Shown piece by piece: positions 1 to 41,812 of a DNA stretch of 44,155 nucleotides (within the stretch, counting starts at the first letter, position 1; the number at the start of each line of letters is the position of its first letter). Where the stretch lies: IMG/VR virus record IMGVR_UViG_3300037147_000255, positions 1 through 44,155 of that record; one strand, written 5' to 3'. The notes beneath the pieces are model-generated. The model saw only the letters and a list, made by a program, of their open reading frames with translations, was not told where the DNA came from and searched no databases. The translations under genes and the position numbers were made by a program. This DNA comes from a virus.

Positions 1-180
1 GAGCTTTGGGAAAGTTCGCACGCGGAGCTTCGGGGAAGTTCGCACGCGGTGCTTCGGGAAAGTTCGCACGCGGTGCTTTGGGAAAGTTCGCACGCGGAGC
101 TTCGGGGAAGTTCGCACGCGGTGCTTCGGGAAAGTTCGCACGCGGTGCTTTGGGAAAGTTCGCACGCGGTGCTTTGGGGA
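1..180 (+). repeat. 24-bp tandem repeat array, about 7.5 units, cut by left edge
   Basis: Seven full 24-bp units occupy 1-168 and half a unit follows to about 180. All share the core AAGTTCGCACGCG and vary mainly at GAGCTT/GTGCTT and TTGGG/TCGGG. The unit length is a multiple of three, so each unit encodes eight residues of the protein read through it (L-R/W-E/G-S-S-H-A-V/E). Units 2-4 and 5-7 repeat in the same order of variants, which suggests duplication of a 72-bp block as well as of single units. There are no unique spacers, so it is not a CRISPR array. Confidence 0.95.
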
Positions 181-690
181 GAAGCCCTTGTAAGCGCATT
201 CAGCGCCAAAGAGATTGTCGCCCACGGTTACAACGTTATTTCTCTCCGCAAATCGGCCAAGAAAACTATAAAGCTCGTCGTCGGCAAAAATGCGACACTG
301 AAAATCGTTCCTGACTTCAAGCCAACGTTCAAGGAATTCGCGCTCCGCTATCCTGTAGAAGTTAAGGGTAAGAACGCGATCATGTACAAGGCAGTTCATA
401 AGCGCGACGGGAAATACTTTTCCGATTACTCAAGCGGATTTGAGTATGAGATCGGCAAAGAAAAGACCCATGACTGCGCTCCCTCTTCTGATGGCTCGTG
501 TGCTCCCGGCCTCCATGTATCCCATAAAAGCTGGGCGAGGGGATTTGGCGGCGGATGGATTGATTTCGCCCTTCTCGAATGCGAAGTCCCGATAAAATCC
601 ATTGTGGTATCTAAGGATACCGACGGAAAGGTCCGCACGTCGAAATTAACCGTGCTCCGCGAAGTTCCCGCGAGCGAATATTGGCAATGA
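1..690 (+). CDS. Octapeptide-repeat phage protein with conserved C-terminal domain (5-prime partial)
   Basis: The frame is open from the first base, so the gene probably begins upstream of the window; the first internal ATG is at 49. Visible residues 1-60 are eight-residue repeats rich in S-S-H-A that could form a stacked beta-solenoid. The remaining 170 residues form a compact domain with the features K-D-G-K, C-A-P-G-L-H-V-S and a final K-V-R-T-S-K-L-T-V-L-R-E-V. From memory, this architecture (short repeats of SSH-V-A type capped by a DUF7666-like domain) recurs in phage early regions and has no established function. The stop codon overlaps the start of the next gene (ATGA), indicating coupling. 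Family assignment is inference. Confidence 0.72.
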   Translation, partial: ELWESSHAELRGSSHAVLRESSHAVLWESSHAELRGSSHAVLRESSHAVLWESSHAVLWGEALVSAFSAKEIVAHGYNVISLRKSAKKTIKLVVGKNATLKIVPDFKPTFKEFALRYPVEVKGKNAIMYKAVHKRDGKYFSDYSSGFEYEIGKEKTHDCAPSSDGSCAPGLHVSHKSWARGFGGGWIDFALLECEVPIKSIVVSKDTDGKVRTSKLTVLREVPASEYWQ

Positions 691-10630: not shown

Positions 10631-12982
10631 ATGGACAACCGTTTCATCCCTACATCCAGTCTGAATGCCAAGAACAAGCCAAGCTGGCCTATTCGCGCTT
10701 TAAATTCGCTTAATCCCTTCAAATCCCGTATCGAGCCGGAAGTGTACGGCCAGGACCAGAAAATCGAGTTCAACCGCTTCGGCATCGTGAACCGCGCCGT
10801 TACGAAATCAGGACGTTCCGTATTTGGTGAGTTTAGCGAGGGAAGCCAATTCAACATCCCCGCGCCAGGCGGCGGCAGTTCAATCAACACCTCGAAAGCA
10901 TTAGCAAACAACAAAGGATTCGTCTACGCCGCCGTAAACGCAAAAGCGCGCGAAGTTATGAACATTGACTGGCGCTTGTTCGAAGTGGACGGCGAAGACC
11001 ACGAGGAACAACTCGATCACGATTTACTCGACTTGCTCGACAGCGTGAACGACAACATGACGGGGCTGGAATTTAAGTACCTGATTTCAGCCTGCCTCGA
11101 CCTTACGGGGAATGCCTATATCTGGCTCGAAGGCGTAAAAAATGACACGGACAAACCCAAAGCCCTCCATCTCATGCCGCCGGACAAGGTGCAGACGATC
11201 ATCGACCGCCGCTCGTGGCCGAACCAGTTGATCGGTTACAAGATGCGCCTGGAAAATTCGACGACCGACATGGCGTTCCAGCCATACGAGGTTGTGCATC
11301 TCCGCCTGCCGAACGCAAAGAATTTCTTCGAAGGATTAAGCCCAGTAGAAGCGGGCGCGGAATACATCGACAACGACAACTATGCGATGGAGTTCAACCG
11401 CAAATTCTTCATCAACGGCGCGCGGCCGGCAGGCTTCCTTGAAAGCGAATTTGTTTCCGAAATACAGACCGAAGTCTTAAAGATCAGCTTTGCCAACCAG
11501 CATGAAGGCATCGACAACATGAACCGCATCGGTGTCCTGCCTAAAGGTGTGAAGTGGGTGCCCACGGGTTCCAACCCAAAGGACATGGATTTCAAAAACA
11601 TGTCCGAAGATATGCGCGACCGCATTCTTTCGATGTTTGGTGTATCACGCACAATTTTAGGAACAGCGGAATCAGACACGAACCGTGCAACCGCCGAAAC
11701 GGCGGACTATGTCTTCTCGAAACGCGTTATCAAACCGCACATGACGCTCATTTGTTCATTCCTCAATGAGCGCCTCGTCCCTCGCTACGGAGATAACCTC
11801 TACATAACGTTCATTGACCCCGTGCCGGAAGATAAAGCCTTCAGGACAATTGAGATGCAGGCCGCCTCAGGCAGCCAGCCAGTGCTCACGCCGAATGAAA
11901 CCCGCGATGAGTTTATGGGAATGGGACCTGTGGAGGGCGGCGACAAGCTCTATGGCTCAACCTCATTCGCACCGCTTGGCGAACCAGAGGCAGAAACGGA
12001 CGTTGACCCCGATGCCAAACCCAACACCGAACCGTTGAAACGAGTTGCCAAATCCGTTAAAGCCGCGAACGGCCAGCGCGTCGCATTCCGTGTTGCGCGA
12101 ACGAAGCTGCATAAGCGCACTGAGATGCGGAAAAAGATGGCCGAAGGCCTTAAAGAACGAATTGCAAAAGCAGTTGAGGAAGCTGCGAAGCACGTGAGCT
12201 TCTCCACGAAAGAAAAAGATGCGGAAGTTTCAAAAGCCGTTAGCGAACGTACCTTTAAAGCCGAAGCTGAAATAAAAGAAACGATCATCAAGCTGAACGG
12301 CGAACAGAAAAAAGAAGTCCTTGCGAATCTTTCCAATGTCGTAAAAGCCATCGACCCGTCGAAACTTTTCAACATCGACAATTGGATCTCGATAACGACG
12401 AATGCTTTGACCCCGGTCATGGAAAGCTTGTTTGAGAGTGAAGGGAAAGCCGCCGCCGCTGAAATTGGCAAACCCGAACTCAACCCCATCTCTGACATCG
12501 CCGCGCGGGAAGCATTGCACGAATCCATAGCGAAGATGTCAGAGAGTTACAACCAGACGACCCTTGCCACCCTTGAAGTGAAAATCAATGACGGCCTTGC
12601 GGCAGGCGATAGCTTGGCGGATATCTCAAAAACGGTGAGTGAAATTTACGAATGGAGCGACACCTGGCGCGCGGAGAGAGTTTCGAAGACCGAAGCATTT
12701 CGCACGACGAACATGGCATTGAAGACCGCCTGGCAGCAATCCGGCGTCGTAAAGACGATCAAGTGGTACACGTCTTCGGCCGAACCGTGTCCCTTCTGTC
12801 TCGCGATGAATGGCAAGGTCATTAGCATCGACCAGAACTTCTTCAATAATGGCGACAGCTTGACGGTGGGCGAAGGCGACGACGCGAAAACGATGTCGCT
12901 CGACTACGGGGATGTCGGTTCGCCGCCTCTTCATCCCCAGTGTCAATGCGTAGCCAGGCCAGAGGAAATTTCTATTGATTAA
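10631..12982 (+). CDS. Portal protein fused to MuF-type head morphogenesis domain
   Basis: The N-terminal 450 residues are HK97-type portal: V-Y-A-A-V-N-A-K-A-R-E-V, L-T-G-N-A-Y-I-W-L-E-G, H-L-R-L-P-N-A-K, F-N-R-K-F-F-I-N-G-A-R-P, M-F-G-V-S-R-T-I-L-G. A 170-residue charged helical linker leads to a MuF/SPP1-gp7-like domain at about 620-783. That domain contains R-V-S-K-T-E-A-F-R-T-T-N, I-K-W-Y-T-S-S-A-E-P-C-P-F-C and P-P-L-H-P-Q-C-Q-C, whose Cys/His set suggests a metal site. The portal forms the DNA entry ring; MuF-domain proteins are minor head proteins, sometimes ejected. At 783 residues it is a true fusion of two usually separate genes. Confidence 0.9.
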   Translation: MDNRFIPTSSLNAKNKPSWPIRALNSLNPFKSRIEPEVYGQDQKIEFNRFGIVNRAVTKSGRSVFGEFSEGSQFNIPAPGGGSSINTSKALANNKGFVYAAVNAKAREVMNIDWRLFEVDGEDHEEQLDHDLLDLLDSVNDNMTGLEFKYLISACLDLTGNAYIWLEGVKNDTDKPKALHLMPPDKVQTIIDRRSWPNQLIGYKMRLENSTTDMAFQPYEVVHLRLPNAKNFFEGLSPVEAGAEYIDNDNYAMEFNRKFFINGARPAGFLESEFVSEIQTEVLKISFANQHEGIDNMNRIGVLPKGVKWVPTGSNPKDMDFKNMSEDMRDRILSMFGVSRTILGTAESDTNRATAETADYVFSKRVIKPHMTLICSFLNERLVPRYGDNLYITFIDPVPEDKAFRTIEMQAASGSQPVLTPNETRDEFMGMGPVEGGDKLYGSTSFAPLGEPEAETDVDPDAKPNTEPLKRVAKSVKAANGQRVAFRVARTKLHKRTEMRKKMAEGLKERIAKAVEEAAKHVSFSTKEKDAEVSKAVSERTFKAEAEIKETIIKLNGEQKKEVLANLSNVVKAIDPSKLFNIDNWISITTNALTPVMESLFESEGKAAAAEIGKPELNPISDIAAREALHESIAKMSESYNQTTLATLEVKINDGLAAGDSLADISKTVSEIYEWSDTWRAERVSKTEAFRTTNMALKTAWQQSGVVKTIKWYTSSAEPCPFCLAMNGKVISIDQNFFNNGDSLTVGEGDDAKTMSLDYGDVGSPPLHPQCQCVARPEEISID

Positions 12983-12984
12983 GC

Positions 12985-13590
12985 GTGAAAACAAATTGCG
13001 CCTATTGTGGAAAAGAGTTGGATCGCTCACCATGTCGAGCGAAGCGACGTTGTTATTGCAATCAAACTGAAGTCATGTTGTACCAGTACAAGTACGGGAT
13101 CATGGATGGCAAAAAGGTTATAGAGAATGCCCACGAAACGCTTGCTAGTAATGGCTGGAATCGTGGTGTACCTAAACCCATGCTCATGGGCGAGAATAAT
13201 CCCGCAAAGCAACCTGACGCTCGCGCCAAAATCAGCGCCGCCAAATTAGATCACAATTGGATGCGTGGCCGTACTGGGAAACTTCATCATCTCTACACAG
13301 GTGGGAAAATCTGGTGGAGGGGTGCTGACTGGGATGCCATTAAACTACGCGTTCGGCAGCGAGACGGTTTCATGTGTACTGAATGTGATATGACCGAGTG
13401 GCAACACGAACAAAAATGGGGACATCCCCTCCATGTCCACCACATAATCGCTTACCGGATTTCTCACGACAATTCCATGTCGAATCTTCAGACGCTTTGT
13501 GATTCTTGCCACGGAAAGAAAAAATCTGACGAAAACATCCTGATTGAACAGTGCCGAGAGGTGCTGGCCCTTCCTGCCGCAGCTCAGTAA
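12985..13590 (+). CDS. HNH homing endonuclease 1
   Basis: The GTG-started 201-residue protein has an N-terminal zinc finger (C-A-Y-C-G-K, then C-R-A-K-R-R-C-Y-C). A NUMOD3-like segment follows (N-P-A-K-Q-P-D-A-R-A-K-I-S-A-A-K), then a C-terminal HNH: F-M-C-T-E-C, H-V-H-H-I-I-A-Y, L-Q-T-L-C-D-S-C-H. That is a free-standing homing endonuclease architecture. It sits two bases after the portal-MuF gene and interrupts the head operon. By eye it looks more A+T-rich than its neighbours, consistent with recent arrival. Confidence 0.85.
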   Translation: MKTNCAYCGKELDRSPCRAKRRCYCNQTEVMLYQYKYGIMDGKKVIENAHETLASNGWNRGVPKPMLMGENNPAKQPDARAKISAAKLDHNWMRGRTGKLHHLYTGGKIWWRGADWDAIKLRVRQRDGFMCTECDMTEWQHEQKWGHPLHVHHIIAYRISHDNSMSNLQTLCDSCHGKKKSDENILIEQCREVLALPAAAQ

Positions 13591-13629: not shown

Positions 13630-14202
13630 ATGCTCGATTCCGTCCAGAACCTAGTCAAACTCAACGTATCGCAAGGGTACGACCAAAACGCAACCTCGAT
13701 CGTATTAGAAGCGGGGCAAGGCGCGGAACTCCCGGCGGCTTCGTTCAATGTGACTTGGTGGAATGCTACGGACTATGCCGACCCTTCTGATGACCCGAAC
13801 GCCGAGATCGTACGTATAACTGCCATTTCTACTGACACGTTGACCATTACCCGTGGCGCTGAGAGCGCGACCGGCGGAGGCGCGGCATCAACGAAAAATA
13901 CAGCAGGGAAGACCTACAAGATGATCCTCGGCATCACGGCCAAGATGATTACCGATATTGGTGCCAATCTCCAAAAGCCGTGGAGATTGGTTACGGTGAA
14001 TGGCACGATTAACAGCGTAAACACGGTATTTACGCTCAACGGCGCGATTACGCCATTCGACCCGAATTCGATGGACCTCAAGCTCGCCCGGCAGCCCCAG
14101 GAGCAGGGAATCGACTACACGCTTTCTGGCACGACCATCACCTATGTCGTTCCTCCGGATATTTCGCTCGCCGGCCAACCGCACACTGCCAAGTACCAGT
14201 AA
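13630..14202 (+). CDS. Phage structural protein, probable head or fibre adaptor (190 aa)
   Basis: The protein is beta-rich, with an N-terminal half containing I-V-R-I-T-A-I-S-T-D-T-L-T-I-T-R-G. The C-terminal module has V-N-G-T-I-N-S-V-N-T-V-F-T-L-N-G, G-I-D-Y-T-L-S-G-T-T-I-T-Y-V, a pattern widely seen in phage receptor-binding and virion surface proteins. It directly precedes the giant fibre gene and may connect that fibre to the virion. Confidence 0.6.
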   Translation: MLDSVQNLVKLNVSQGYDQNATSIVLEAGQGAELPAASFNVTWWNATDYADPSDDPNAEIVRITAISTDTLTITRGAESATGGGAASTKNTAGKTYKMILGITAKMITDIGANLQKPWRLVTVNGTINSVNTVFTLNGAITPFDPNSMDLKLARQPQEQGIDYTLSGTTITYVVPPDISLAGQPHTAKYQ

Positions 14203-14223: not shown

Positions 14224-14239
14224 TTTAACTATAGTTAAA
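14224..14239. promoter_or_regulatory. 16-bp perfect palindrome TTTAACTATAGTTAAA
   Basis: A perfect 16-bp palindrome lies 15 bases before ATG 14254 of the fibre gene. It contains TATAGT, so it could be an operator overlapping a -10 box. No good -35 box is visible at 16-17 bases upstream. Confidence 0.45.
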
Positions 14240-14253
14240 ACAACATCCGCTAC

Positions 14254-17200
14254 ATGAAGAAGTTCCTGCTCGCCTTATCCTCTCTCCTCTTTCTCGCTTC
14301 TGCCGGGCAGTATTTAACGACGCGCGCCGCCGCCTATCCTCCGGCTTTAGGGGGGACCGGCACGTCACTTGTCCCGGCCTCAGGCACAATCCCGATTGGT
14401 ACCGGCGCGGGAATCTACACCCCCGCACTGCTCACGCCGGGCACCGATATCGTTATCAGTAATGCTTCCGGGAGCGTGACGATTGCGGTGAACGCAAACC
14501 AATTCCTTCCGTCCAGTACGGTGTATGTGGCGTCAGTGAATGGCCAGAGCGGGACGGTCACAATAACCTCATCAACCTTGGGCGTCGCAACAAACACGAT
14601 CTCGCTTTTCAATGGGAATGGGTTTACGACGACGACCATTCAAAGCGTGCTGAACTCGCTCTCAGTATCCGGCCTCTTGACCTACAACTCATCCACCGGC
14701 GTTTTAGGCTACACATCGTCTTCCCTCGCACTCGGTACGGCGTCGCATAATAGTTCTTCGGATTTTCTCGCGTCATCCACCGTCTATGTCACGACTGTGA
14801 ACGGACAATCGGGGGCGGTGACGATAAACGGTGTGGCAACGACCACTATCAACGGCACGCAGGCGGCGGTTTTCCGGATTGTGGGAGACGGCACAACCGT
14901 CACCTCAACCGTGAGCGGCGCGACGACCACATTTTCTATTCTCACTACGGGCAATTGGATCGGCACATGGCAGGGCGTGAATTCCTCAACCTTTTATCTT
15001 GCGACCAATCCGAACCATTACATCTCGTCCTCAACCGCGAGCACGCTCTACTACCCGCTGACTGGCAATCCGTCCGGCTTTCTGACATCCGCCCCGGCGA
15101 CGACCACGGTCAACGGCCAGCAGTGCGCTGCGTTCACCTTCAGCACGACAGCGACCACAAGCCCCAGTTCCGTGACGACCACGACGTGCGCGCTTTTTAT
15201 CAATCTTCTTACCTATTCGAGCGGCACGGACATCAATGTCAGCTCGAACGGAGTTATAAACTTCGTGAACACTCCGGGATATCTCACGGCGGCGGTCACC
15301 TCCGTCAACGGCAACTCGAATGCCGCGCAAACTTTCACGGGAGGCACGGGAATTTCGGTATCGAGCTCCGGCGGCAATACCACGACGACGAATACCGGCG
15401 TGACATCGTTCACGGGAGCAGGATGCGTCACGGCCGCGAATAGCACGGGCACGGTAACGCTCTCGGTGACCTGTGCGGGCAGTGGCGGCGTTGCTTCGAC
15501 GACCCCATTCACGGCAGGCAATCTCGTTGTCGTATCGTCGTCTGGCGCATTAGCAAGCATCTCAAGTTCGACCTACTATCTTTCAACAAATCCTTCAGGC
15601 TACATCACAACCTCGACCAATAATTTCGGCGGCATCACCACTTCTACCTACAACGCTTCCATAACTATTTCCACGGCTGCTCCTTTGGGCGGTGGTGGGC
15701 AACTCTCGAATAATGGGACGCTGAACCTCACTTGCGCTACCTGCATTTCCACCTCAACTTTCAACGCCACGGGAACGACGGGAAGCGGAGCGTATTTTAT
15801 AGGTTCCAGCACTTTGGCATCGACCAACATCCAATACGTCCCCGCAAACTTCGCCACGGCGGGTTGCGCGGGTTCCTCGACCGCGACCACGTTGAATGGC
15901 TGTATAAATGCAATCTATTCCTCGCAATCTGCGCTTGCGAGTACGACCAATCCCGGCGGCGTGACCATCTGGATTACGAACTCCGTTACTTCAACATGGA
16001 CGGGTGAGATCAATTTCAATATCAACGGGCTTGTTCCGTCGCTCAAATGCACAGCCGGGGTATCCCTTGTCTATACGGGAATCGGAAACGCTTACGCCGG
16101 TGACTTCAATTTCGGCAATTTCACGGGACACGTCACGAGCGATGACAGCGGATGTATTTACAAGAGCAACATCGCTGGAATATCGGCCGGACAGACCAAC
16201 CTCTCAACGACTACCGCGTGGTTGTTCGGCGGTTCGAATGGGGCGGTGGGCGTTAATTTCCACGACAACACGGTCAACGGCTTTCAAACGGCTGTGGAGG
16301 TGGGACAGAACGCCTATATGGATAGTTGGCTAAACAATTCTTTCTCTGGCGGCAACGGAGGCCAAGCCAATCGTGGTTCGGAAATCCAGATCGACACCGC
16401 CAATAATTCGGGCGAGTCACTCACGTTCGGCGGAAATCTTGTCACCGACCCCGGCAATTCCAGTTCCAGCAACTGCATCAACGTGGCTGACAATGGGGTG
16501 GAGAATCTGGAAATTACGGGAGGCGGTGCGGTTGACGATTGCCAAATCAGACTCGGTATCAGCGAGAACATTGTGAACATCGACCACATTGACATGGAAA
16601 ATGCGGCGTATGGAACGTACGGAAAATTTCCCTACATCATCGCTTCTTCTTCTGGCGCGACTGTTCTGAACGTAGATCATGTCATTTTTGCAAACGACGC
16701 CAATACGAGTGGCAACAGCCCGCCGGAATTTGTCGAGGAAGCTGTGAATTTTAGCTTCAATAACAACACGCTCGATCTCTACGGTACTGCACCCGCCATG
16801 ACGAACGCCGTGGATCACACTTTGAATCCCGGTCAAGCGGTAGAAGGAGCGTGTGCAAACTGGGTACAGAATGGCGTGGTTTCAAATATCCTTCCGCTAT
16901 CGGGAACTCCCTATCCCGCTTGCATCACCGAATACAACAATAGTTATCCTGTTTATTTGTCTACGGGAGGCAACAATGTCGGATACATCGTGAATGGCCA
17001 GCAAAACGTGGCGACCTTCGACAACAACGGCAACTGGACTTTCTTAAACAATGTGAAGGTCGGCGGCGCATTGAATGTAACGAGCACGGCGACCTTCCAA
17101 GCGGCCCTCACGCAATTGGGAGGTTCAGTGTCCCTCGCCTCAACGAGCATTACTGGTGCGGCTTCTACGACCGGAAACTTTGCCATCGGGGGAACGCTGA

Positions 17201-17580
17201 ATGTGACCGCCACTACGACCCTTCTCGGAGTGACCGAAGCATCCGGCACGCAATACTATTCGCTTTTCGCCTCAAGCAGCGCGAACGCATCCCAGACCAC
17301 GATCAATTGGAACAACAGCAACGTCCAGGAATTGAAGCTCACGACCTCGACCACCATCACGTTCACGAATACTAATCCGGGAGCTCGCTATATCCTCATG
17401 CTTTTGCAAGACGCTACCGGCTCTCGAACCGTCACCTGGCCTTCAACCGTTCAGTGGGCAGCGGGAACCGCTCCGACTTTGACGACGACCGCAAGCAAAA
17501 TGGACATCATAACGTTCGTGTGTGCTAGCGTTTCATCAACCGATTGCTACGGAGGTGCGAATCTTAACTACTCGCCGTAA
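14254..17580 (+). CDS. Giant fibre / tailspike-like protein with signal peptide (1108 aa)
   Basis: Residues 1-27 form a signal peptide (K-K-F, hydrophobic core, A-A-A site). The next 450 residues are Ser/Thr/Gly-rich beta repeats with recurring modules V-Y-V-x2-V-N-G-Q-S-G-x-V-T-I and Y-Y-L-S-T-N-P-S-G-Y-I. About 530-860 looks like a right-handed beta-helix (short strands with N-x-I-D/N-V patterns), as in tailspike depolymerases. The last 100 residues (R-Y-I-L-M-L-L-Q-D-A-T-G-S-R-T-V-T-W-P) match the C-terminal head of phage fibres. It probably binds or degrades host surface glycans. A signal peptide on a fibre and its place in the head module are unusual. Confidence 0.75.
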   Translation: MKKFLLALSSLLFLASAGQYLTTRAAAYPPALGGTGTSLVPASGTIPIGTGAGIYTPALLTPGTDIVISNASGSVTIAVNANQFLPSSTVYVASVNGQSGTVTITSSTLGVATNTISLFNGNGFTTTTIQSVLNSLSVSGLLTYNSSTGVLGYTSSSLALGTASHNSSSDFLASSTVYVTTVNGQSGAVTINGVATTTINGTQAAVFRIVGDGTTVTSTVSGATTTFSILTTGNWIGTWQGVNSSTFYLATNPNHYISSSTASTLYYPLTGNPSGFLTSAPATTTVNGQQCAAFTFSTTATTSPSSVTTTTCALFINLLTYSSGTDINVSSNGVINFVNTPGYLTAAVTSVNGNSNAAQTFTGGTGISVSSSGGNTTTTNTGVTSFTGAGCVTAANSTGTVTLSVTCAGSGGVASTTPFTAGNLVVVSSSGALASISSSTYYLSTNPSGYITTSTNNFGGITTSTYNASITISTAAPLGGGGQLSNNGTLNLTCATCISTSTFNATGTTGSGAYFIGSSTLASTNIQYVPANFATAGCAGSSTATTLNGCINAIYSSQSALASTTNPGGVTIWITNSVTSTWTGEINFNINGLVPSLKCTAGVSLVYTGIGNAYAGDFNFGNFTGHVTSDDSGCIYKSNIAGISAGQTNLSTTTAWLFGGSNGAVGVNFHDNTVNGFQTAVEVGQNAYMDSWLNNSFSGGNGGQANRGSEIQIDTANNSGESLTFGGNLVTDPGNSSSSNCINVADNGVENLEITGGGAVDDCQIRLGISENIVNIDHIDMENAAYGTYGKFPYIIASSSGATVLNVDHVIFANDANTSGNSPPEFVEEAVNFSFNNNTLDLYGTAPAMTNAVDHTLNPGQAVEGACANWVQNGVVSNILPLSGTPYPACITEYNNSYPVYLSTGGNNVGYIVNGQQNVATFDNNGNWTFLNNVKVGGALNVTSTATFQAALTQLGGSVSLASTSITGAASTTGNFAIGGTLNVTATTTLLGVTEASGTQYYSLFASSSANASQTTINWNNSNVQELKLTTSTTITFTNTNPGARYILMLLQDATGSRTVTWPSTVQWAAGTAPTLTTTASKMDIITFVCASVSSTDCYGGANLNYSP

Positions 17581-18332
17581 TGAAAAAATATCTCATCGCA
17601 ATCGGAGTTTTCATCGCACTCTGTTTTGTGCCGAAAGCGTTTGCCGCAATCACCCTGAAAAATAACTGCTCCAATACAAGTGGTGGAGCTTCGGGAACCA
17701 CACTCGGTTGTTCTTTGGGAACGGTTACGGCTGGCGACCTTATCGTCGTCATGGTGGATGGATATTCGTCTCCCACCTCAACAGCGACAATCAGCGACAA
17801 AGGAGGAGACAGTTTTACGCAGGGAACCTATGCCACTTCTTCCGGGCTGGGCATGGAGCAAACGTTCTATTCCGCAAACGTTGCTGGAGGGTCTTCATAT
17901 CAAGTGACCTCAACATGGAATCCGACTATCACCTACCGCTATATTTCCGCTTTTGAGTTCAGCGGCGCAGCTACTTCCTCCCCCCTCGATGCGACGGGAA
18001 CGTATTATGCCAATAGCAGTGCGGCGGGGCCTTATGCGACGAGCAATGGTACGACGACACAGGCGAATGACCTCATCGTGGGTATCTCGAACTGCAACGA
18101 CAGTCCCGGTGTCGTTACTCAGGGGACCGGATATACGATTTACAACACCTCTGGGGGGCAATGCGATATTTCCGAAGCATCTACCTCTGTCGGTGCGGCG
18201 GGAAGCCATAATGCTCCATTCAACATCAGCAATTCGAGCGACCATGTAGAGGCAGCCATGGAAGCGTTCAAGGCCGCGCCCGCTTCACAACCAACCTCCA
18301 CTCCCGACGCCCTATTCTTCGCGGGGGATTAA
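17580..18332 (+). CDS. Secreted fibre-associated beta protein (250 aa)
   Basis: ATG 17580 shares its A with the preceding stop codon (TAATG). Residues 1-22 are a clear signal peptide ending K-A-F-A. The rest is a beta-sandwich-like domain: G-D-L-I-V-V-M-V-D-G-Y, A-T-I-S-D-K-G-G-D-S-F, Y-I-S-A-F-E-F-S-G-A. I recall that pattern in extracellular proteins of Acidobacteriota and in phage adhesins. Coupled expression with the giant fibre suggests one function, for example a fibre subunit or a surface protein deployed in lysogens. Confidence 0.6.
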   Translation: MKKYLIAIGVFIALCFVPKAFAAITLKNNCSNTSGGASGTTLGCSLGTVTAGDLIVVMVDGYSSPTSTATISDKGGDSFTQGTYATSSGLGMEQTFYSANVAGGSSYQVTSTWNPTITYRYISAFEFSGAATSSPLDATGTYYANSSAAGPYATSNGTTTQANDLIVGISNCNDSPGVVTQGTGYTIYNTSGGQCDISEASTSVGAAGSHNAPFNISNSSDHVEAAMEAFKAAPASQPTSTPDALFFAGD

Positions 18333-18547
18333 GGTTCACGAAGCCAAGCTTCTGCCAGTAATCGCTTTTCGTGTCGCGGTTCAAGCGCTTTTATGTTAGC
18401 TGGGCGGAGCCAAAGATGTGTGCAACTATCAATAGCGGTCCTTTGCAGACACAGTTTCCCGTGTTTTGCCTTCAATGCGAAAAACTTGTGTTCCTGCTAA
18501 GCGGCATCGTGTTTGAAGCAAGCGACCCGCGTTCGTCAGGAGTCTAG

Positions 18548-19252
18548 CTAACACAAGATACGCTGGATATTCTTTATGTTGCGATGGGGAAACGCCAGGA
18601 CAAGTTGTTTTCCTTTGGGTTTGACTCCCTCGATATCGAAATTGCCGTCATCCAAGCAATATGGACTCAGATAAGGAGCTTCGATGAATGCCGGCCCATA
18701 GACTCGGTACTCAAACGATCTACTCGGTGCGGCAAAAAATGCCGCGCATTGTGAAGGCTCCAAAGCTGCATTCTTCTCAGCGTAGCGCGGATTGGCCGAC
18801 AGCGCCTTTAATTGAAGTACGTCATCGCGATCCGCATCATTCAAAACAAATTGTTCCCTGATGAGATGGATTGTCCGATCAAGTTCGGCCGAGATCTTCA
18901 TTTGGTTTAGCGCTACGTTAAAGCCATCTTCTAACTCGTCTGGATATCGCATTGTGTAGGCCTTTTCAAGAAAACGCAGGAAACCCTCGTTAAGAACCAA
19001 CGATGAGCGAATATGCTTTTTGACAGTGCCGTAAATAACGGCGATCCTATGACTCCTCGGAATGGGAAGTCCAACATTCGCGCATAGTCCCTTCAAATAT
19101 TTTTCAATCGCTGTGTTTGCCAGTCCCGATCCCTGAACGAGCATCCCCTCCAAAAGAAGGGATCGAGCAGCAAGATAATCAGCATTGCCCCATCGTATCC
19201 AGTGAAAAACCTTTATTGCATTGTGATCCGAACTAGCACATCTACCTGCCAT
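18548..19252 (-). CDS. HEPN-domain-like protein (234 aa), reverse-strand cargo
   Basis: The N-terminal 120 residues read like a HEPN helical bundle: W-G-N-A-D-Y-L-A-A-R-S-L-L-L, G-L-A-N-T-A-I-E-K-Y-L-K-G-L and I-P-R-S-H-R-I. A second domain has Y-R-V-Y-G-P-A-F-I-E-A-P and ends near an R-N-I-K-N-I-Q-R helix. The strict HEPN RNase motif R-x4-6-H is not obvious, so catalysis is doubtful. ATG 19252 is chosen for GGAGG five bases upstream. A TTG at 19333 with AGGAGG eight bases upstream is an alternative that adds 27 residues. Its place in reverse within the structural operon suggests a lysogen-expressed defence or exclusion gene. Confidence 0.55.
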   Translation of the reverse strand: MAGRCASSDHNAIKVFHWIRWGNADYLAARSLLLEGMLVQGSGLANTAIEKYLKGLCANVGLPIPRSHRIAVIYGTVKKHIRSSLVLNEGFLRFLEKAYTMRYPDELEDGFNVALNQMKISAELDRTIHLIREQFVLNDADRDDVLQLKALSANPRYAEKNAALEPSQCAAFFAAPSRSFEYRVYGPAFIEAPYLSPYCLDDGNFDIEGVKPKGKQLVLAFPHRNIKNIQRILC

Positions 19253-19368
19253 CACAACCTCCACCGTACACAAAATGAGCCTGTCTCTTACACTTAAAGT
19301 ATCACTCCCCGTGCATCTGTTCGACATCCTCAAAAGGCCGTCCTCCTAAGGAGGCATTAGATATCCCC

Positions 19369-19396
19369 ATGACCTTTTTTCCGTTCTTTCTATACT
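19369..19396 (+). promoter_or_regulatory. Putative promoter, ATGACC-N16-TATACT
   Basis: ATGACC (19369-19374), a 16-base spacer and TATACT (19391-19396) lie 14 bases before ATG 19411, the first plus-strand gene after the reverse HEPN-like gene. It would restart plus-strand transcription past the cargo gene. Confidence 0.45.
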
Positions 19397-19410
19397 GAGA
19401 ACAAAACCAA

Positions 19411-19539
19411 ATGTACGGCTTTTCTGGCTACGGCACCAATTCATACGGCTCGAAACGCGTCTCGCTCATCCCGCCGATTATTAAAAAGGCGATGCGTTAT
19501 CTGCAATTGAAATTCAAAAGCATCACCCTCGGCCTATGA
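19411..19539 (+). CDS. Small basic hypothetical protein (42 aa)
   Basis: The ORF starts just after a promoter candidate and its TGA (19537-19539) overlaps ATG 19536 of the next gene. The N-terminus is Gly/Tyr-rich (Y-G-F-S-G-Y-G) and the C-terminus basic and amphipathic. No family recognised. Confidence 0.45.
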   Translation: MYGFSGYGTNSYGSKRVSLIPPIIKKAMRYLQLKFKSITLGL

Positions 19540-19877
19540 TTATCCAACCCCAAATTGTAGGGCAGGGCGACTATGGTTACGAGCTTCCTTTTACGCTCGA
19601 AGATGGAGATGGAAATGCTGTCGATATCACCTCTGCCGCGCTTGTCCTGAACGTGCAGGACAGCCAAGACCCCTCCCAGGAGGTCTTATTTAGCGGCTCC
19701 ATGACCGTTGACAACGGCCCGGACGGGACCTGCCACTACACCGTGGCGCAGGGAAATTTTCCGAACCCCGGAACATTCATCGCCCAGATCATCGCCACAT
19801 GGTCTTCCACGGAAGTCCTCACCTGGTCAGGCGTCACCATCATCGTCGCCCCGAAGCTCCCGAAATCGAACAACTGA
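19536..19877 (+). CDS. BppU-N-like virion protein (113 aa)
   Basis: The whole protein resembles the N-terminal domain of phage baseplate upper protein BppU: G-Y-E-L-P-F-T-L-E-D-G-D-G-N-A-V-D-I-T-S-A, then a beta sandwich with C-H-Y-T-V-A-Q-G-N-F and F-I-A-Q-I-I-A-T-W. In lactococcal phages this domain anchors receptor-binding proteins to the virion. As a stand-alone domain it could act as an adaptor for the fibres encoded just upstream. Confidence 0.65.
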   Translation: MIIQPQIVGQGDYGYELPFTLEDGDGNAVDITSAALVLNVQDSQDPSQEVLFSGSMTVDNGPDGTCHYTVAQGNFPNPGTFIAQIIATWSSTEVLTWSGVTIIVAPKLPKSNN

Positions 19878-19920
19878 CTTATACACAAGCGCCTCGAACG
19901 CTCTTTGGCATAGTTAAGCC

Positions 19921-20490
19921 ATGAACAATAAATATCTTTATATCGGTTTGGCGGTTGCGCTAGTGGCTGGTTTGGTCGGAGGTATCCTCGGCGCGAAGTG
20001 GTTTGCGCCCCTTGTCGGGGGAGATTTTGCGGGAGGTGTTCTTCCCACAAACCTCGTAACCGGCAACGACGCGAACAATTACGCGTATCCGGTAGGCAGC
20101 TTGGCATGGGGAGCACCGAACGGCCTCTATATCGGCGGATTGGCAGCGAACAACGAACTTACTCAGCTCTACACGGCGACCGAGGCATACCCGGCCACCG
20201 CGTTCAACCTAGGAGCCATCACGAACGCAACCTCGGCCACGAGCACGTCGTTCAGCTTCAGCGCGCCTGGGTTTTCGGTCGGCGACGCGTGCGAGGTGAC
20301 GTACAACGGTGCGACAACCACGAGTGCCTTCGGAGCCGATGCCTTCGTCACGGCAGTAAACGGCAGCGCGGTTACGACAACGGTAACGTTCTGGAACGGT
20401 GCGGCCTCGGCAATCACCTTTAGCGTCACAAGCACCGCGACTGGAGTATCTAGCACGCTCAAGGCGACTTGTTTCCACACCGGAGTTTAG
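19921..20490 (+). CDS. N-terminally anchored beta-rich protein (189 aa)
   Basis: Residues 5-33 form a glycine-zipper-like transmembrane helix (A-L-V-A-G-L-V-G-G-I-L-G-A-K-W). The rest is a Thr/Ala/Ser-rich beta domain with F-S-V-G-D-A-C-E-V-T-Y and V-T-V-T-F-like repeats similar to small phage decoration proteins. Three of five genes from 14254 onward thus carry signal sequences or anchors. Possible roles are a virion surface protein with an export signal or a host membrane protein; the sequence does not decide. Confidence 0.5.
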   Translation: MNNKYLYIGLAVALVAGLVGGILGAKWFAPLVGGDFAGGVLPTNLVTGNDANNYAYPVGSLAWGAPNGLYIGGLAANNELTQLYTATEAYPATAFNLGAITNATSATSTSFSFSAPGFSVGDACEVTYNGATTTSAFGADAFVTAVNGSAVTTTVTFWNGAASAITFSVTSTATGVSSTLKATCFHTGV

Positions 20491-20507: not shown

Positions 20508-22043
20508 ATGAATGAAATCCTCAAACAATTCTCGGAAGACGTAGCAAAACAGCTCAAAGCAAAAATCGAGAGCGCCGAATTTGCGGCTTTCATCGAGAAA
20601 GTAAAAGCCGCCGGTGACGACCGTACTTTCGAAGTCGTGATGAGCACCTCAGACGAAGACAGGCAGGGCGATGCCCTTGACCAGTCGGGATGGGATTTTA
20701 GATATTTCGACATGAACCCTGTGCTCCTTTGGGCGCACAACTATTCATCCTTCCCCATCGGCGTCATTACCGACATCGAGGTTAAGGGAAACGAAACCGT
20801 CGCCACCGGCAAATTCGCCCCGGCAGGAATGAACCCGGATGCCGACCTTGCATGCGCCCTTTATCAGGAGAAAATCCTCCGCGCCGTTTCCCCCGGCTAT
20901 ATCCAGAACGACGACGGCACGCGCGAATTGCTTGAAGTGAGCTTCTGCCCGGTTCCCGCTGGGCGTTACGCACTCTCCATGCGCCAGGTACGGAGCCTCG
21001 GCTTGTCCACCCGCGAATTGATTACAAAGGGATTCTTTTTTGAGAAGAAAGCGGATGATGATCCCAAGCTCGGCGATTCCTGCGAGGGAGACGATGGCAC
21101 GCCCGGAGTGCTCGCGAAAGACCCGAAAAATCCCGACCGCCTCATCTGCGTCCCCAACGAATCAAAATCAAACGAAACCCAAAGCAATATGAACGACGAA
21201 CTCCAGAAGAACTTAAAAGCGGAACATGAGCGGCACGGGAAAGCGGTCATGAAGTCCATTGAGGAATTCGGCGAGAAGTGCTTTGGCAAGTCAGAAAAGG
21301 CCAAAGACGATGAGGCGGCCAAAACCATCGAGGAGTTTGAACAAAAACTCGAAGCCGAACATACGGAGCATGGCGAGAAGTGCATGAAGGCCGTGGACGG
21401 CGCTTACAAGATCGACCCGGAGGAAAAGAAGTCCATAGACGAATTCAAGAAAGCTATCGAAGGCGAAAATCTTGAGCACGTTAAATGCTTCAGTAAGGCG
21501 ATTGAGGAGTTCAAAGCTGAACCGAATGAGAAAGCGCTCGACGAGTTCACGACGAAGGCTGAAGACGAACTCGCCCGGCATGAAAAGGCGCACGTGGATT
21601 TGTGCGAAAAGGAATTCGGTGAAGGCCAGGATGACGGGAAGGATGAGAAAGCAATCACTGAAAAATCCGGCCGCGCCATTTCCGCCGCTACCAAGGAAAA
21701 ACTCGATGCAGTTTCAAAATCGCTCGATGACCTCCATGACAAGCACGCAAAGGCTTTGAGCGACCTCGCGGACGAACATAAGAAGGATATTTCCAATGCA
21801 ACCGCTGCCATTAAGGCAATTGCCGAAAATGGCGACGTGGGGGAGGAAAAGCCTGGAGAAAAGGCTTCCCCGAACGCAAGGTCGAGTTCCTCAGGAGCGG
21901 CAATCAACAAGGATGTTCCGATGACAGACCTCGAAACGTACTTGTTCACCCAACGGCTCTTGAGGCAGGTCAAATCTGCGTCGGAAGACGGGCTCCGCCA
22001 AATCAAGGACGACTTGAAAACGAAGTTCCCCTCCCGCAGATAG
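20508..22043 (+). CDS. HK97-type prohead protease fused to long helical scaffold-like region
   Basis: ATG 20508 follows AAGGAGGT by one or two bases. Residues 35-165 are a prohead protease: V-V-M-S-T-S-D-E-D-R-Q-G-D, W-A-H-N with His77, A-V-S-P-G-Y-I with Ser128, and L-L-E-V-S-F-C-P-V-P-A. Residues 230-510 are almost entirely charged helix with repeated E-H-x-x-H-G/E-K-x-x-K patterns, the character of a scaffold or delta domain that templates capsid assembly and is then digested. At 511 residues it is more than twice the usual protease length. It lies directly before the major capsid gene, as expected. Confidence 0.85.
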   Translation: MNEILKQFSEDVAKQLKAKIESAEFAAFIEKVKAAGDDRTFEVVMSTSDEDRQGDALDQSGWDFRYFDMNPVLLWAHNYSSFPIGVITDIEVKGNETVATGKFAPAGMNPDADLACALYQEKILRAVSPGYIQNDDGTRELLEVSFCPVPAGRYALSMRQVRSLGLSTRELITKGFFFEKKADDDPKLGDSCEGDDGTPGVLAKDPKNPDRLICVPNESKSNETQSNMNDELQKNLKAEHERHGKAVMKSIEEFGEKCFGKSEKAKDDEAAKTIEEFEQKLEAEHTEHGEKCMKAVDGAYKIDPEEKKSIDEFKKAIEGENLEHVKCFSKAIEEFKAEPNEKALDEFTTKAEDELARHEKAHVDLCEKEFGEGQDDGKDEKAITEKSGRAISAATKEKLDAVSKSLDDLHDKHAKALSDLADEHKKDISNATAAIKAIAENGDVGEEKPGEKASPNARSSSSGAAINKDVPMTDLETYLFTQRLLRQVKSASEDGLRQIKDDLKTKFPSRR

Positions 22044-22063: not shown

Positions 22064-23332
22064 ATGGACCCCAAAAAACTCTCTGAAACGATTGTTAAGG
22101 AAGTCATAGACGCAAACACGAAGTCCTTCGCCGACATGATGGAAGCAGCCCTCGCCAAAACCGAGGAAGTTTCCGCCAAGACGGCGCGCGAGATGGTCGA
22201 GCGGATGTCCTTCGAACGCGCAGTGCGCGGACGGGACATCACGGGCTTGAACAGCGAGCAGAAGATGGCCTTCGCCAAACAGGTGCAGGGTGTCTTCAAG
22301 GGCGACGACCAGGCCGCGCGCATGGTGACCAAGGATTCGTCCTACGTCACCAAAGCGAACGAGGCCCTGATCGAACAGCAGGACGGCCGCGGCGGATATC
22401 TGGTAGCCCCAGAATACGCGGCAGCAATCTTGCGTATCGCGGCTTCCGTCGGAACGATCATGAAGCAGTGCCAGCAGTGGCCGATGAAGACCGATGAACT
22501 CGGTATTCCGAACTACACTGGCGCGTTCCTGACCGGCTCTTACGTCGGCGTTGACCTTCCGGGAACGGTGACAGGGCTTACCTTCGGGCAGGCCGTCCTC
22601 ATCGCAAAACTTTGGCAGCTTGCATTCACGGTCGGCAACGACCTGATGCAGGACGCCTCGGTAAACCTCGGTGATTGGCTCTTGACCATGGCTGGCGAAG
22701 CACTCGCCAACATGATCGACCAGCAAGGCTTCATCGGCGGCACGGTAACCACCGCGCCGGGACCCTTCGTCGGCATCTTGAACGTCACGGGCACGAACCT
22801 GTACTACAGCGGTAACTCAAGCACGTCCGGAAAGACCAGCATGAGCGGTTATAACGTCGTTACCGACAGCGGTAACGTTGTTGGACAACTCGAAGAATCC
22901 ATCCTTGATGGTGCAGCCTGGTACTTCCACCGCACGACATGGGCAGCCTTCCGTACCCAGCTTGCTTCGACCTCCGGCGTCCCGTATCTCTTCCTATCGG
23001 GCGCAAGCAACGAGCTCTCGGACACTCCGGGCGGCGGACCGATTAAGCCCGCAGGCGAATTGATGGGCTACCCGGTTTATACGAACCGCTGGCTTCCCGC
23101 TTACACGGGTGCCACCGTTTCCGCAAGCACGGTGTTCGGCATCTTCGGCAATATGAAGGCATGCGCGTTCGGTGACAAAGGTGATATGCGCGTCGCGCAG
23201 TTCACTTCCGGCAACTTCGGCGGCAAGGAAGTAGCGCTCGCGAACCAGACGGGCATCGTCTACCGCCATCGTCACGCGTTCGTCGTTGTGCTTCCGAAAG
23301 CCTTCGTCCTTCTCTCAACCTCGGCATCGTAG
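22064..23332 (+). CDS. Major capsid protein, HK97 fold
   Basis: The 422-residue protein has a helical N-terminal arm (1-105) of the kind removed or used in scaffolding. The HK97-fold core begins near G-G-Y-L-V-A-P-E-Y-A-A-A-I-L and continues with V-G-T-I-M-K-Q-C, W-Q-L-A-F-T-V-G-N-D-L-M-Q-D-A, P-F-V-G-I-L, W-Y-F-H-R-T-T-W, P-A-G-E-L-M-G-Y-P-V-Y-T-N and F-G-D-K-G-D-M-R. These match the E-loop, spine helix and P-domain order of siphovirus capsids. It assembles the icosahedral shell. Confidence 0.92.
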   Translation: MDPKKLSETIVKEVIDANTKSFADMMEAALAKTEEVSAKTAREMVERMSFERAVRGRDITGLNSEQKMAFAKQVQGVFKGDDQAARMVTKDSSYVTKANEALIEQQDGRGGYLVAPEYAAAILRIAASVGTIMKQCQQWPMKTDELGIPNYTGAFLTGSYVGVDLPGTVTGLTFGQAVLIAKLWQLAFTVGNDLMQDASVNLGDWLLTMAGEALANMIDQQGFIGGTVTTAPGPFVGILNVTGTNLYYSGNSSTSGKTSMSGYNVVTDSGNVVGQLEESILDGAAWYFHRTTWAAFRTQLASTSGVPYLFLSGASNELSDTPGGGPIKPAGELMGYPVYTNRWLPAYTGATVSASTVFGIFGNMKACAFGDKGDMRVAQFTSGNFGGKEVALANQTGIVYRHRHAFVVVLPKAFVLLSTSAS

Positions 23333-32178: not shown

Positions 32179-32805
32179 ATGATAATTTTCTGCGCCATTT
32201 GCAAAAGACAAAAGCTCACCTACTCCAAAGGAGTTCGAACTTGTGCTCGCAAACGTTGCAAGTTTTTGTATCGAAGCAAGGAGGTATCAAGCAGAGGAGT
32301 TGAATGGAGAAAAAAGAAATCTGAAGCAGCGAAAAAAGCCGGGGTCGGCAAATGGATGAAAGGACGAACAAATCATCACAGTCAGCAAGCTCGCCAAATG
32401 TTTTCCAAGCGATGGCTCGGTTCTGGCAATCCCAGGTGGAAAGGAGGCGTTCCCCGAAGCGTAACGCATAAGAACTGGCTCGCCGCACATCCTGACCGAG
32501 TTCGACATTACAATCGCCTAGGCAAGGCCCGTAGGCGTCGTGCACCAGGAACGTACACGCTTGGCGAATGGCTTGCCTTAAAGCGCGCATATCTATTCAC
32601 GTGTCCTAATCCTATCTGCCTCAAAAGCGAGCCAGAAATAAAACTCACTCCAGATCACATTGTCCCTCTCAGTCGAGGTGGGGCCAATCGCATTTCAAAC
32701 ATTCAGCCTTTACGCCAACGCTGCAACACCAAGAAATGGGCGACCACCCAGAAATTCGACTCGACCGGAATCGTCGCCAAATTTAAATCCACTATCGCAG
32801 TATGA
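32179..32805 (+). CDS. HNH homing endonuclease 2
   Basis: The 208-residue basic protein starts one base after the preceding stop. It has an N-terminal zinc finger (C-A-I-C-K-R-Q, C-A-R-K-R-C) and an R-W-L-G-S-G-N-P-R-W-K-G-G motif of NUMOD type. The C-terminal HNH reads C-P-N-P-I-C, D-H-I-V-P-L-S-R-G-G-A-N, I-Q-P-L-R-Q-R-C-N-T-K-K. It interrupts the tail operon, yet its TGA overlaps the fibre ATG (32802), so it is now translationally coupled. That suggests long residence or an insertion that restored a junction. Confidence 0.85.
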   Translation: MIIFCAICKRQKLTYSKGVRTCARKRCKFLYRSKEVSSRGVEWRKKKSEAAKKAGVGKWMKGRTNHHSQQARQMFSKRWLGSGNPRWKGGVPRSVTHKNWLAAHPDRVRHYNRLGKARRRRAPGTYTLGEWLALKRAYLFTCPNPICLKSEPEIKLTPDHIVPLSRGGANRISNIQPLRQRCNTKKWATTQKFDSTGIVAKFKSTIAV

Positions 32806-34202
32806 AGAGCGTCAGACTTCCCAGTGGTTCCACTTATTTTGCGCATGAACACAACGCCCTTCGTTCTGATGCCGCCGCAGCCGCTTTTCTTCACGTACAC
32901 CAGCAGCTCGGAGCATTGGCGTTAGGAACTACACCCTCAAATAACCAAACAGTCACGCTCGATATAAACGGCACGAACGTTGCCTTCAATGCAGTCACGG
33001 GAAGTCCGACAAATCCCGGCGACGTGAAAGCACCAGGCACCGCGGCTGGGTTCGTAGCGAACCTTGAAGCGGCATTACAGAATCCAACCGTTTCCACATC
33101 AACCTTTATCGCGCTTTCCGCACCGAACGCCATCCTCGTGCAATATCTCGGCTGGGGACTTGCCACCGGCGGCACCACGATCACGTCATTCTCGCTTAAC
33201 ACTTCGACGTATGCACCACTCACATCCTTTTCCGTTTCTACCACGGTCACGAGCGGGACATGGACGGCGCAGACAATGCAGCTTTATATCGAACCTGGTA
33301 CCTATTACGTCGGCACCACGCGCGTCCTTTTTTTGGGCGGCAGCACTCCGACAATTACCGCGCCGTCATCCCACCCGCGCATCGACCTCGTAACCGCAGA
33401 TTCGACTGGCACCATCGCGCTTGTTACCGGAACCGAAAACGCTTCGCCGGTTACTCCGTCCTATCCCGCGAATAAGCTCGTCCTCGCCGAAATCTATAAC
33501 GTCGTGGGAGAAACGGCGCTTTACGACAACGACAACCAGCAGACAGGGCAGGGATATGTCTACAACGACGTACGTCCGGCTCTCGCGCCACCCTACATCA
33601 GCAGCGCCTCCCAGATCGCGAGTGGCATTGTCTTGCTAGATCCGGGGAGCGACGCGCAGGGCGATGTTTACTACTGGAATGGCTCAGCTCTTGCCCGTCT
33701 TCCGGCCGGAAGCGCCGGGCAGATTCTTTCGACTCAAGGGGCGAGCGCGAATCCGCAATGGATTTCGCCCTTCGGCACGAAGCTCGCGCAGACAAATACC
33801 CAAGCGACCGGGTCGCTTACGCAGAATGTCCATACTGTAGTTCAGACACTCAGCAGCATCCCCGCAGTGGGCGCAAATGCCTCTATCAGAATACGTGGCC
33901 ACTACAACGGCGGCACGAACGTGGTCATTGCCCGACTGACCATCGGCGGCGTAACTATTCAGATCGGGTCAACCAACGGTGCTTCCGACAACTACTTTGA
34001 CATCACGGTCGTGAACAGGAACTCGCAAACCACGAACGATATTTACGGGTTTAAGACCACAAGCGGAACCGTCGAATGGGCAGGCCAGGCAAGTTTCAAC
34101 GCGAACCTCTCCTCTGCCTGGACCCTCACGCTTGATCTCGACCCGACAGCCATCGGATCAACCTACACGGTCGACTTCCTTGATGTTTACCTCATCGGTT
34201 AA
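32802..34202 (+). CDS. Tail fibre protein (466 aa)
   Basis: The N-terminal region (F-A-H-E-H-N-A-L-R-S-D-A-A-A-A-A-F-L-H) is followed by beta-rich Thr/Ser domains with V-T-L-D-I-N-G-T-N-V-A-F-N-A-V. The module P-A-G-S-A-G-Q-I-L-S-T-Q-G-A-S-A-N-P-Q-W is a signature of many phage fibres. The final jelly-roll-like domain (S-I-R-I-R-G-H-Y-N-G-G-T-N-V-V-I-A) probably binds the receptor. It is the last tail gene before lysis. Confidence 0.8.
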   Translation: MKSVRLPSGSTYFAHEHNALRSDAAAAAFLHVHQQLGALALGTTPSNNQTVTLDINGTNVAFNAVTGSPTNPGDVKAPGTAAGFVANLEAALQNPTVSTSTFIALSAPNAILVQYLGWGLATGGTTITSFSLNTSTYAPLTSFSVSTTVTSGTWTAQTMQLYIEPGTYYVGTTRVLFLGGSTPTITAPSSHPRIDLVTADSTGTIALVTGTENASPVTPSYPANKLVLAEIYNVVGETALYDNDNQQTGQGYVYNDVRPALAPPYISSASQIASGIVLLDPGSDAQGDVYYWNGSALARLPAGSAGQILSTQGASANPQWISPFGTKLAQTNTQATGSLTQNVHTVVQTLSSIPAVGANASIRIRGHYNGGTNVVIARLTIGGVTIQIGSTNGASDNYFDITVVNRNSQTTNDIYGFKTTSGTVEWAGQASFNANLSSAWTLTLDLDPTAIGSTYTVDFLDVYLIG

Positions 34203-37664: not shown

Positions 37665-37696
37665 GCCGAGTCCACCCCAATACTCGGCATTTTTTT
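37665..37696 (+). terminator. Rho-independent terminator of the late plus-strand operon
   Basis: GCCGAGT (37665-37671) pairs with ACTCGGC (37682-37688), followed by A and seven T residues (37690-37696). It ends plus-strand transcription just before the convergent lipoprotein gene, whose stop codon lies at 37695-37697. Confidence 0.88.
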
Positions 37697-39353: not shown

Positions 39354-39444
39354 ATGCACCTCCATATTCCAGGGGCCGTTCGGACAATTCATAGGTTCCC
39401 TGGGGGGAAGGGCGAACCGCGCCGCAACATCTTAACAGAGAAGA

Positions 39445-40942: not shown

Positions 40943-41812
40943 ATGAAAAAAACCATCCCGTTCTCAGTTCTGCTGTTCCTCTCGCTCGTTTCGACTGCCT
41001 TCGCGCGCGACTACCGTGAATCGTACCGGCACGCGCACACGCCCGCGCCACAACCCGTAGCCCCTTCCACGCCACCGGTTCAGATAACAACTCAACCAAT
41101 TGGGTCAAGCACGCAAAATGGTTTGCAGTTCGGTTTCTTTGAGGCCCCGGCGGGTGTTTCCGCCCCGTGGACGATGGCATTCACTGACGGCGCTTTCCCT
41201 TCCTTTTCCGGCAATGCGGTTATCTTTATGGAACCGCCATACGACGATGCTCAGATTGTGGCAGGCGATTTTGATTCACAGCTTCGAAGTTTTGCTCAGG
41301 CGGCTTTCGAACATTCCGGGACCGTAATCCTTCCCTTAGGAGAAGAAGTGAATTGCGATAATTCAGACCCCTGGGGCGGCGCGTACAAAGGGAACACCGT
41401 AGCTTCCACGATCGCCGCCTTCCAGCATGAAGCCACGCTCGCCCGCGAATACGACCCAAACATCTTGATAGCTTTCTCCACGAACAACGGCTCTTGCTAT
41501 GGCGAGGCCCCGGCCACGAGTTTCTATCCTGGTGCGGCGTATGTAAATATCGTAGGCGATGACGGTTTTGATTTCGGCGGCCAGAATTGGGCGCAGGTTT
41601 TCGACAGTTCATTAACCTCCCTCGCCGCGCTCGGAAAGCCGATGTGGATTTTGAGCGAAGGAATTATCCCGACCGACAATCAGAGCCAATTCATCTCCGA
41701 CACCTTTTTGGGAGCCAAGACGTACAACTTGCAAGGAGTTCTCTACTTCAACGGTCCCGGATGGACACTTTCTTCCGCCGTGCTCTCAACCCTCAAAACT
41801 CTGATGCAATAA
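40943..41812 (+). CDS. Secreted GH26-like glycoside hydrolase
   Basis: The 289-residue protein has a signal peptide (1-21, ending T-A-F-A) and a Pro-rich linker (32-48). The (beta/alpha)8-type domain contains I-L-P-L-G-E-E-V-N (putative acid/base Glu135), Y-P-G-A-A-Y-V-N-I-V-G-D-D-G-F-D and W-I-L-S-E-G (putative nucleophile Glu239). These match the layout of family 26 hydrolases (beta-mannanases and related enzymes). Export in a lysogen would let it act on extracellular polysaccharide, or it may help phage release through biofilm; both are inference. Confidence 0.7.
   Translation: MKKTIPFSVLLFLSLVSTAFARDYRESYRHAHTPAPQPVAPSTPPVQITTQPIGSSTQNGLQFGFFEAPAGVSAPWTMAFTDGAFPSFSGNAVIFMEPPYDDAQIVAGDFDSQLRSFAQAAFEHSGTVILPLGEEVNCDNSDPWGGAYKGNTVASTIAAFQHEATLAREYDPNILIAFSTNNGSCYGEAPATSFYPGAAYVNIVGDDGFDFGGQNWAQVFDSSLTSLAALGKPMWILSEGIIPTDNQSQFISDTFLGAKTYNLQGVLYFNGPGWTLSSAVLSTLKTLMQ

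Follow-up and report, generated by a model that had tools for sequence, protein, structure and literature searches.

We describe a block of late genes, located between the portal and presumed protease genes of a temperate siphovirus, whose main product is a large fibre that is almost certainly exported, because it carries a signal peptide and because the cysteines of the mature part are even in number and locally paired in 32/32 fibres of this kind. The assembly of tailed phages is generally held to take place entirely within the cytoplasm, and we know of no tailed phage whose spikes are assembled outside it. We infer that such late-exported fibres mature outside the cytoplasm and then join the virion at lysis, a reading whose chances we judge to be about evenly balanced.

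Organization and conservation of the block

The window (the whole stretch of DNA analyzed, 44,155 bases, an IMG/VR virus record) contains a late operon for the large terminase, portal, presumed protease, HK97-type capsid, tail tube, tape measure and hub, and carries an integrase gene at its right end (43091-44155; PF00589). Family matches flank the block, namely the portal with a fused Mu-F-like extension (10631-12982; PF04860) and the capsid (22064-23332; PF05065), and the protease (20508-22043), which is without a family match at the curated cut-off, was assigned by position. An earlier note on this DNA had placed a 6-kb block between portal and protease, comprising a 1108-residue fibre, a second signal-peptide protein, an adaptor and a membrane-anchored beta protein, and the open reading frames were all found in these places. 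Its inventory left out three further genes, i.e., an HNH gene (12985-13590) next to the portal, the gene that follows it, and an antisense HEPN-domain gene.

The gene after the HNH gene encodes a non-exported, fibre-base-like protein of 190 aa (sm190; 13630-14202, plus strand), which matches the N-terminal parts of PHROG tail-fibre families (E down to 4.8e-7) and has 0-1 cysteine across 22 homologues. It is followed by the gene for the exported fibre (14254-17580, plus strand; 1108 aa, with 16 cysteines in 8 local pairs) and by that for the second signal-peptide protein (SP2; 17580-18332, plus strand; 250 aa, 4 mature cysteines). Even cysteine numbers were found in 15/16 SP2 proteins, and the exported SP2 proteins of two relatives (L042 and L045) match the LamG lectin domain in Pfam. 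A scan of viral contigs with SP2 returned the same phage only.

The HEPN gene (18548-19333, minus strand; PF05168, E 1e-7) is a passenger between SP2 and the next conserved gene, with relatives in L008 and L010 (37-40%). Antisense genes of other kinds were observed in L035, and passenger or defence genes seem to insert preferentially in this interval. Downstream of it, a conserved non-exported protein of 113 aa (ad113; 19536-19877, plus strand) has mostly one cysteine in a 25-sequence alignment and matches phrog_1084 weakly (E=0.027); a PDB profile search returned no BppU among the matches of this protein, which the earlier note had called a BppU-like adaptor. The last gene of the block (tm189; 19921-20490, plus strand) encodes the membrane-anchored protein, in which the model places an N-terminal helix at residues 4-27 and a beta domain after it. 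Based on a 27-sequence alignment, tm189 has a GDFxGG motif and one conserved cysteine pair, and its complete homologues contain 2 or 4 cysteines. No confident match was obtained for tm189 in a fold search.

The palindrome that had been counted as part of the block is present just ahead of the fibre gene (14224-14239, unstranded; a perfect 16-bp palindrome, TTTAACTATAGTTAAA) and is one of two of this kind in the window. It is degenerate in the nearest relative (L008), and therefore not a conserved part of the block; we rejected it as a regulatory part, and it is probably incidental.

Outside the block, the left end of the window (1-690) is a short-period repeat of GCTTCGGGAAAGTTCGCACGCG-like units that reads as a repetitive open reading frame. 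Near the integrase gene and on the opposite strand, positions 37695-39392 (minus strand) encode a 565-aa protein that starts with the lipoprotein-type signal MEVHMRLVWIPLVAILVGCGGG and is without a Pfam or PHROG match, a candidate lysogenic-conversion lipoprotein. A 289-aa protein with the signal peptide MKKTIPFSVLLFLSLVSTAFA (40943-41812, plus strand) is without a Pfam match.

The window genes were mapped onto 57 related contigs obtained from a capsid search. The order was constant: portal, sometimes HNH, sm190, signal-peptide fibre, often a second signal-peptide protein, sometimes antisense passengers, ad113, tm189, protease and capsid. A signal-peptide fibre follows sm190 in every relative with sm190 and a readable interval, and was found in 23 relatives and the window (n=24), with lengths of 464-1684 residues. 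Two more distant relatives (L056 and L061; portal 41-43%) have a different signal-peptide fibre in the same place. A signal-peptide fibre adjoined by an SP2 homologue (31% over the full length) was also found in the otherwise unrelated phage G020. Most relatives contain the block. In the distant relatives from Patescibacteria MAGs, the portal leads directly to the protease, or the intervening genes are without a signal peptide, and the block is therefore best read as an insertion. These results agree with the proposal that the block is a unit inserted in the head module, and the co-occurrence search in other phages that had been suggested supports one system.

The location of the fibre is not fixed to the head module. 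L010 and L053 have no head-slot fibre and carry a signal-peptide fibre at the tail-fibre slot instead, and L012 has an additional one there. At the tail-fibre slot of G008 and G009 there are LamG-like proteins without a signal peptide, and similar proteins occupy the head slot of G010 (LamG assigned by eye in these three). In L105 (2970-5909), the sm190 domain is fused to a non-exported spike body of 979 aa that has modules related to those of the exported fibres, and a signal-peptide fibre is encoded after it. Besides, a non-exported fibre-like gene (32802-34202 in the window) is kept in all relatives examined. A cluster in the unrelated phage L112 (597-7632) comprises two signal-peptide proteins, a phrog_1084 protein (E 3.7e-13) and a signal-peptide fibre. 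Among named phages, no close relative was found for the fibre base or for the N-terminus of the tail-slot fibre, and the capsid search gave 24% matches only.

In 11/22 loci there is a 4-base overlap between the sm190 stop and the start of the fibre gene, and no gap exceeds 51 bases; promoter-like sites in the block were at chance level in a consensus scan. It is well supported that expression of the block is tied to the portal operon.

Signal peptides and paired cysteines

Signal peptides and cleavage sites were called with home-made rules. Applied from the starts of 25 late open reading frames of the window, the rule gave a score only for the fibre, SP2, tm189 and one HNH false positive. The signal peptide of the fibre is predicted at residues 1-27 (14254-14334, plus strand) with cleavage at AAA^YPP, based on these rules and an alignment of 22 homologues; the open reading frame starts MKKFLLALSSLLFLASAGQYLTTRAAA^YPP, and that of SP2 starts MKKYLIAIGVFIALCFVPKAFA^AIT. 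The fibre has a basic start, a hydrophobic core and an A-x-A-type site that are conserved in relatives: across the 22 homologues, the basic start and the site, which lies just ahead of a conserved PYPxGxGGTGT segment, are kept and the hydrophobic part diverges in sequence. The prediction that fibre and SP2 carry cleavable-type Sec signal peptides is well supported. No description of signal peptides on such fibres was found in the literature searched, of which the coverage was incomplete.

The mature part of the fibre fits an oxidizing compartment. Mature cysteines are even in number in 24/24 head-slot fibres, in which three odd totals are due to one cysteine inside the signal peptide, and in all 32 signal-peptide fibres when tail-slot and other ones are included (30 non-redundant), although these counts come from relatives and hence are not independent samples. 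Pairing is local, with a median of 17 residues within pairs and 103.5 between them in the 32 fibres; in the window fibre, the pairs are 291/312, 391/407, 494/497, 538/550, 599/634, 741/763, 867/890 and 1090/1098. Mixed or odd counts were observed in the portal, hub, protease, ad113 and the non-exported fibre 32802-34202. Fibres with a GGTGT trunk in unrelated phages have 0-1 cysteine and no signal peptide, with the exception of that of L112, which has a signal peptide and 6 cysteines. The fused, non-exported spike of L105 has 18 cysteines without a signal peptide, and its pairing is less clean.

These sequence patterns strongly support that the fibre is exported and folded with disulfides outside the cytoplasm, in line with the export claimed earlier. 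Alternatively, the hydrophobic N-termini might escape processing altogether and act as anchors in the virion or as assembly signals, considering that the proteins are similar to virion fibres and that their genes lie among virion genes. We consider this very improbable, since the basic, hydrophobic and A-x-A regions are conserved despite sequence divergence, and since even, locally paired cysteines, as counted over the mature part alone, are hard to explain without export and cleavage.

Host and counterparts in cultured phages

Among integrated relatives, L063 is the nearest to the window (capsid 68%, portal 62%, terminase 85%). Its contig, of 232 kb, belongs to a MAG with the title Acidobacterium sp., and L063 adjoins a tRNA-Met and an integrase gene there. 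A repeat of the final 23 bases of the tRNA-Met is found 52 kb away, the G+C content shifts from about 0.62 to 0.56, and the integrase beside L063 is 41.5% identical to that of the window. This 52-kb prophage (G001:C67, about 116-168 kb) contains the full block. No further integrated copies were found among 396 (phylum) and 398 (family) Acidobacteriota genomes. The host of the window phage is probably acidobacterial and diderm. Patescibacteria were also considered as host and rejected, since the relatives there are distant (capsid 46-50%) and have no such block, and since it is an Acidobacterium MAG that harbours the closest integrated copy.

The Tunturi phages are presented as the earliest acidobacterial phages to be reported as isolates (PMC11924767). 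Tunturi 1 and 2 are plaque-forming, and in both of them gp12, gp13, gp14 and gp17 all begin with signal peptides by the home-made rule. The products gp12, gp13 and gp14 are annotated as tail spike or pectin lyase, and by size and annotation these four are the candidates for the main spikes. Their mature cysteines number 20 (gp12), 10 (gp13), 20 (gp14) and 32 or 34 (gp17), mostly in local pairs; gp16 has a signal peptide and one mature cysteine. In Tunturi 1 (L129:10371-23028), signal peptides are present on 5/6 consecutive genes of the structural module, and 3/41 other genes passed the rule, one of them lipoprotein-like. Signal peptides are not mentioned in the parts of the Tunturi paper that were searched (PMC11924767). 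As in the block of the window, the genes are consecutive and late, with signal peptides and even, locally paired cysteines, whereas Tunturi 1 and 2 are podophages and differ in virion type and gene order; named-phage searches found no sequence relation to the window fibre, nor was one expected. Neither Tunturi 3 nor the tail genes tested in Tunturi 4 have signal peptides, and since Tunturi 3 infects the same host strain, the trait is not forced by the host.

These observations bear on the possibility, raised in the earlier note alongside a hypothetical attachment of the fibres to heads, that lysogens display the proteins. Under this reading, a prophage-made adhesin or lysogenic-conversion factor would be shown on the host cell. 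The integrase, the integrated relative with the whole block and the signal peptides would fit such a role, for which there is a precedent in PblB, a tail protein of streptococcal prophages with an adhesin role and, in one pneumococcal form, a putative signal peptide (PMC4508584). PblB resembles the window fibre in being an adhesive, tail-type phage protein, differs from it in host and gene place, and reportedly reaches the surface after induction and lysis of some cells. Display by lysogens seems improbable to us, however, given the location in a late head operon with coupled starts, the chance level of promoter-like sites, the absence of a lipobox or obvious surface anchor in the fibre, and the occurrence of similar proteins both at the tail-fibre slot of relatives and in the plaque-forming Tunturi 1 and 2.

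Fibre fold and possible assembly at lysis

Residues 501-1108 of the window fibre were modeled together with ten relatives, with a mean pLDDT of 64-90 for most blocks, and part of the fibre is predicted to be a tailspike-like beta-helix, at about residues 525-930. The top Foldseek match was the Klebsiella K2-2 spike (E 1.5e-4), and VIA-align gave Z of about 25-30 to inulin fructotransferases, the PfbA adhesin, the Sf6 tailspike and other spikes. Residues 956-1101 form a C-terminal tail-fibre domain that matches phrog_9017 and phrog_24774. The tailspike-like beta-helix is a fold that binds or cuts polysaccharide, but the shared fold does not show the activity of the fibre. The Sf6 tailspike, the K2-2 spike and phi29 gp12 have in common with the window fibre the fold predicted for about 400 residues, with VIA-align Z of about 25-28, and a hypervariable body; they differ from it in that the window fibre has a signal peptide, paired cysteines and a head-module location, and identity is only 8-12%. 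In Caulobacter phage phiCbK, gp76 is a head filament candidate encoded nearer to the head than to the tail genes (PMC3556154). It is, like the window fibre, a large fibre candidate near head genes, and unlike it much larger and glycine-rich, with no signal peptide mentioned in the part of that paper seen (PMC3556154).

The C-terminal part of the fibre is variable. L027 and L030 share 100% in the capsid, 99% in the portal, 95% in sm190 and 98% in the first 120 residues of the fibre, and the window shares 95% with L008 in the capsid, while the remainder of the fibre falls to 36% and 28%, respectively, about the global-alignment level of unrelated Ser/Thr-rich sequences. An exchange of C-terminal parts between otherwise near-identical phages is thus well supported, and the assignment as fibre or tailspike draws on domain sequence or fold and on a structural-module location with such an exchangeable part.

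We propose that the block serves as a cassette, expressed late, for phage fibres that are exported. Folding of these fibres would take place in the periplasm or outside, with heads and tails being assembled in the cytoplasm meanwhile, and fibre and particle would meet at lysis. The N-terminus of the mature fibre might then dock on a virion base formed by neighbouring non-exported proteins, i.e., sm190 and perhaps ad113, or a tail protein in the tail-slot versions, with tm189 as a possible membrane-held partner, and the fibre would serve the virion in recognition of the host surface. Several results favour this proposal: the signal peptide on every fibre after sm190; the parity and pairing of cysteines, versus mixed parity in other structural proteins and 0-1 cysteine in unrelated trunk fibres; the overlap of the fibre gene with that of sm190, the likeness of sm190 to tail-fibre N-termini and the base-spike fusion in L105; the tail-slot signal-peptide fibres of L010, L012 and L053; the hypervariable body beside conserved neighbours, with its tailspike-like fold; and the signal peptides on all main spike candidates of the plaque-forming Tunturi 1 and 2. 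The proposal is weakened by the many cysteines of the fused L105 spike, which has no signal peptide; the product of 32802-34202, which could be the receptor binder of the virion, and the missing precedent among tailed phages known to us also count against it.

The separate non-exported fibre gene in all relatives examined is more easily accommodated if the exported beta-helix and lectin-like proteins act in trans, being released before or at lysis without becoming virion parts. By stripping or masking polysaccharide of the surface, such secreted late factors might keep progeny from becoming stuck to the dying cell and its debris, or might exclude rival phages. This role agrees with the signal peptides and the pairing of cysteines, with the LamG lectin domains of some SP2 proteins and with a fold common to secreted polysaccharide lyases and inulin fructotransferases. 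We nevertheless find a role in trans, the main rival of our proposal, rather unlikely, considering that the genes sit among virion genes, that the base domain is fused to a spike body in L105, that the same kind of gene occurs at the tail-fibre slot, that signal peptides are present on every main spike candidate of Tunturi 1, and that the exported fibres share no binding modules with the phage's own non-exported fibre. The last result also led us to reject receptor masking through shared modules.

A broader reading is somewhat doubtful, though plausible: in some tailed phages, especially those of Acidobacteriota, virion assembly may follow a split route, in which the spike body passes through Sec, folds with disulfides outside and is fitted to the finished particle at lysis. 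If true, tailed phages would have a step of virion assembly that takes place outside the cytoplasm.

Overall, the trait is conserved across a clade of uncultured soil phages, probably of Acidobacteriota, and is paralleled in a cultured acidobacterial phage. Conserved spikes that have both secretion signals and paired cysteines imply one of two things, a late assembly step not known so far or a class of surface enzymes secreted by phages. Either would matter for host range and for the biology of phages in a phylum that is dominant in soil.
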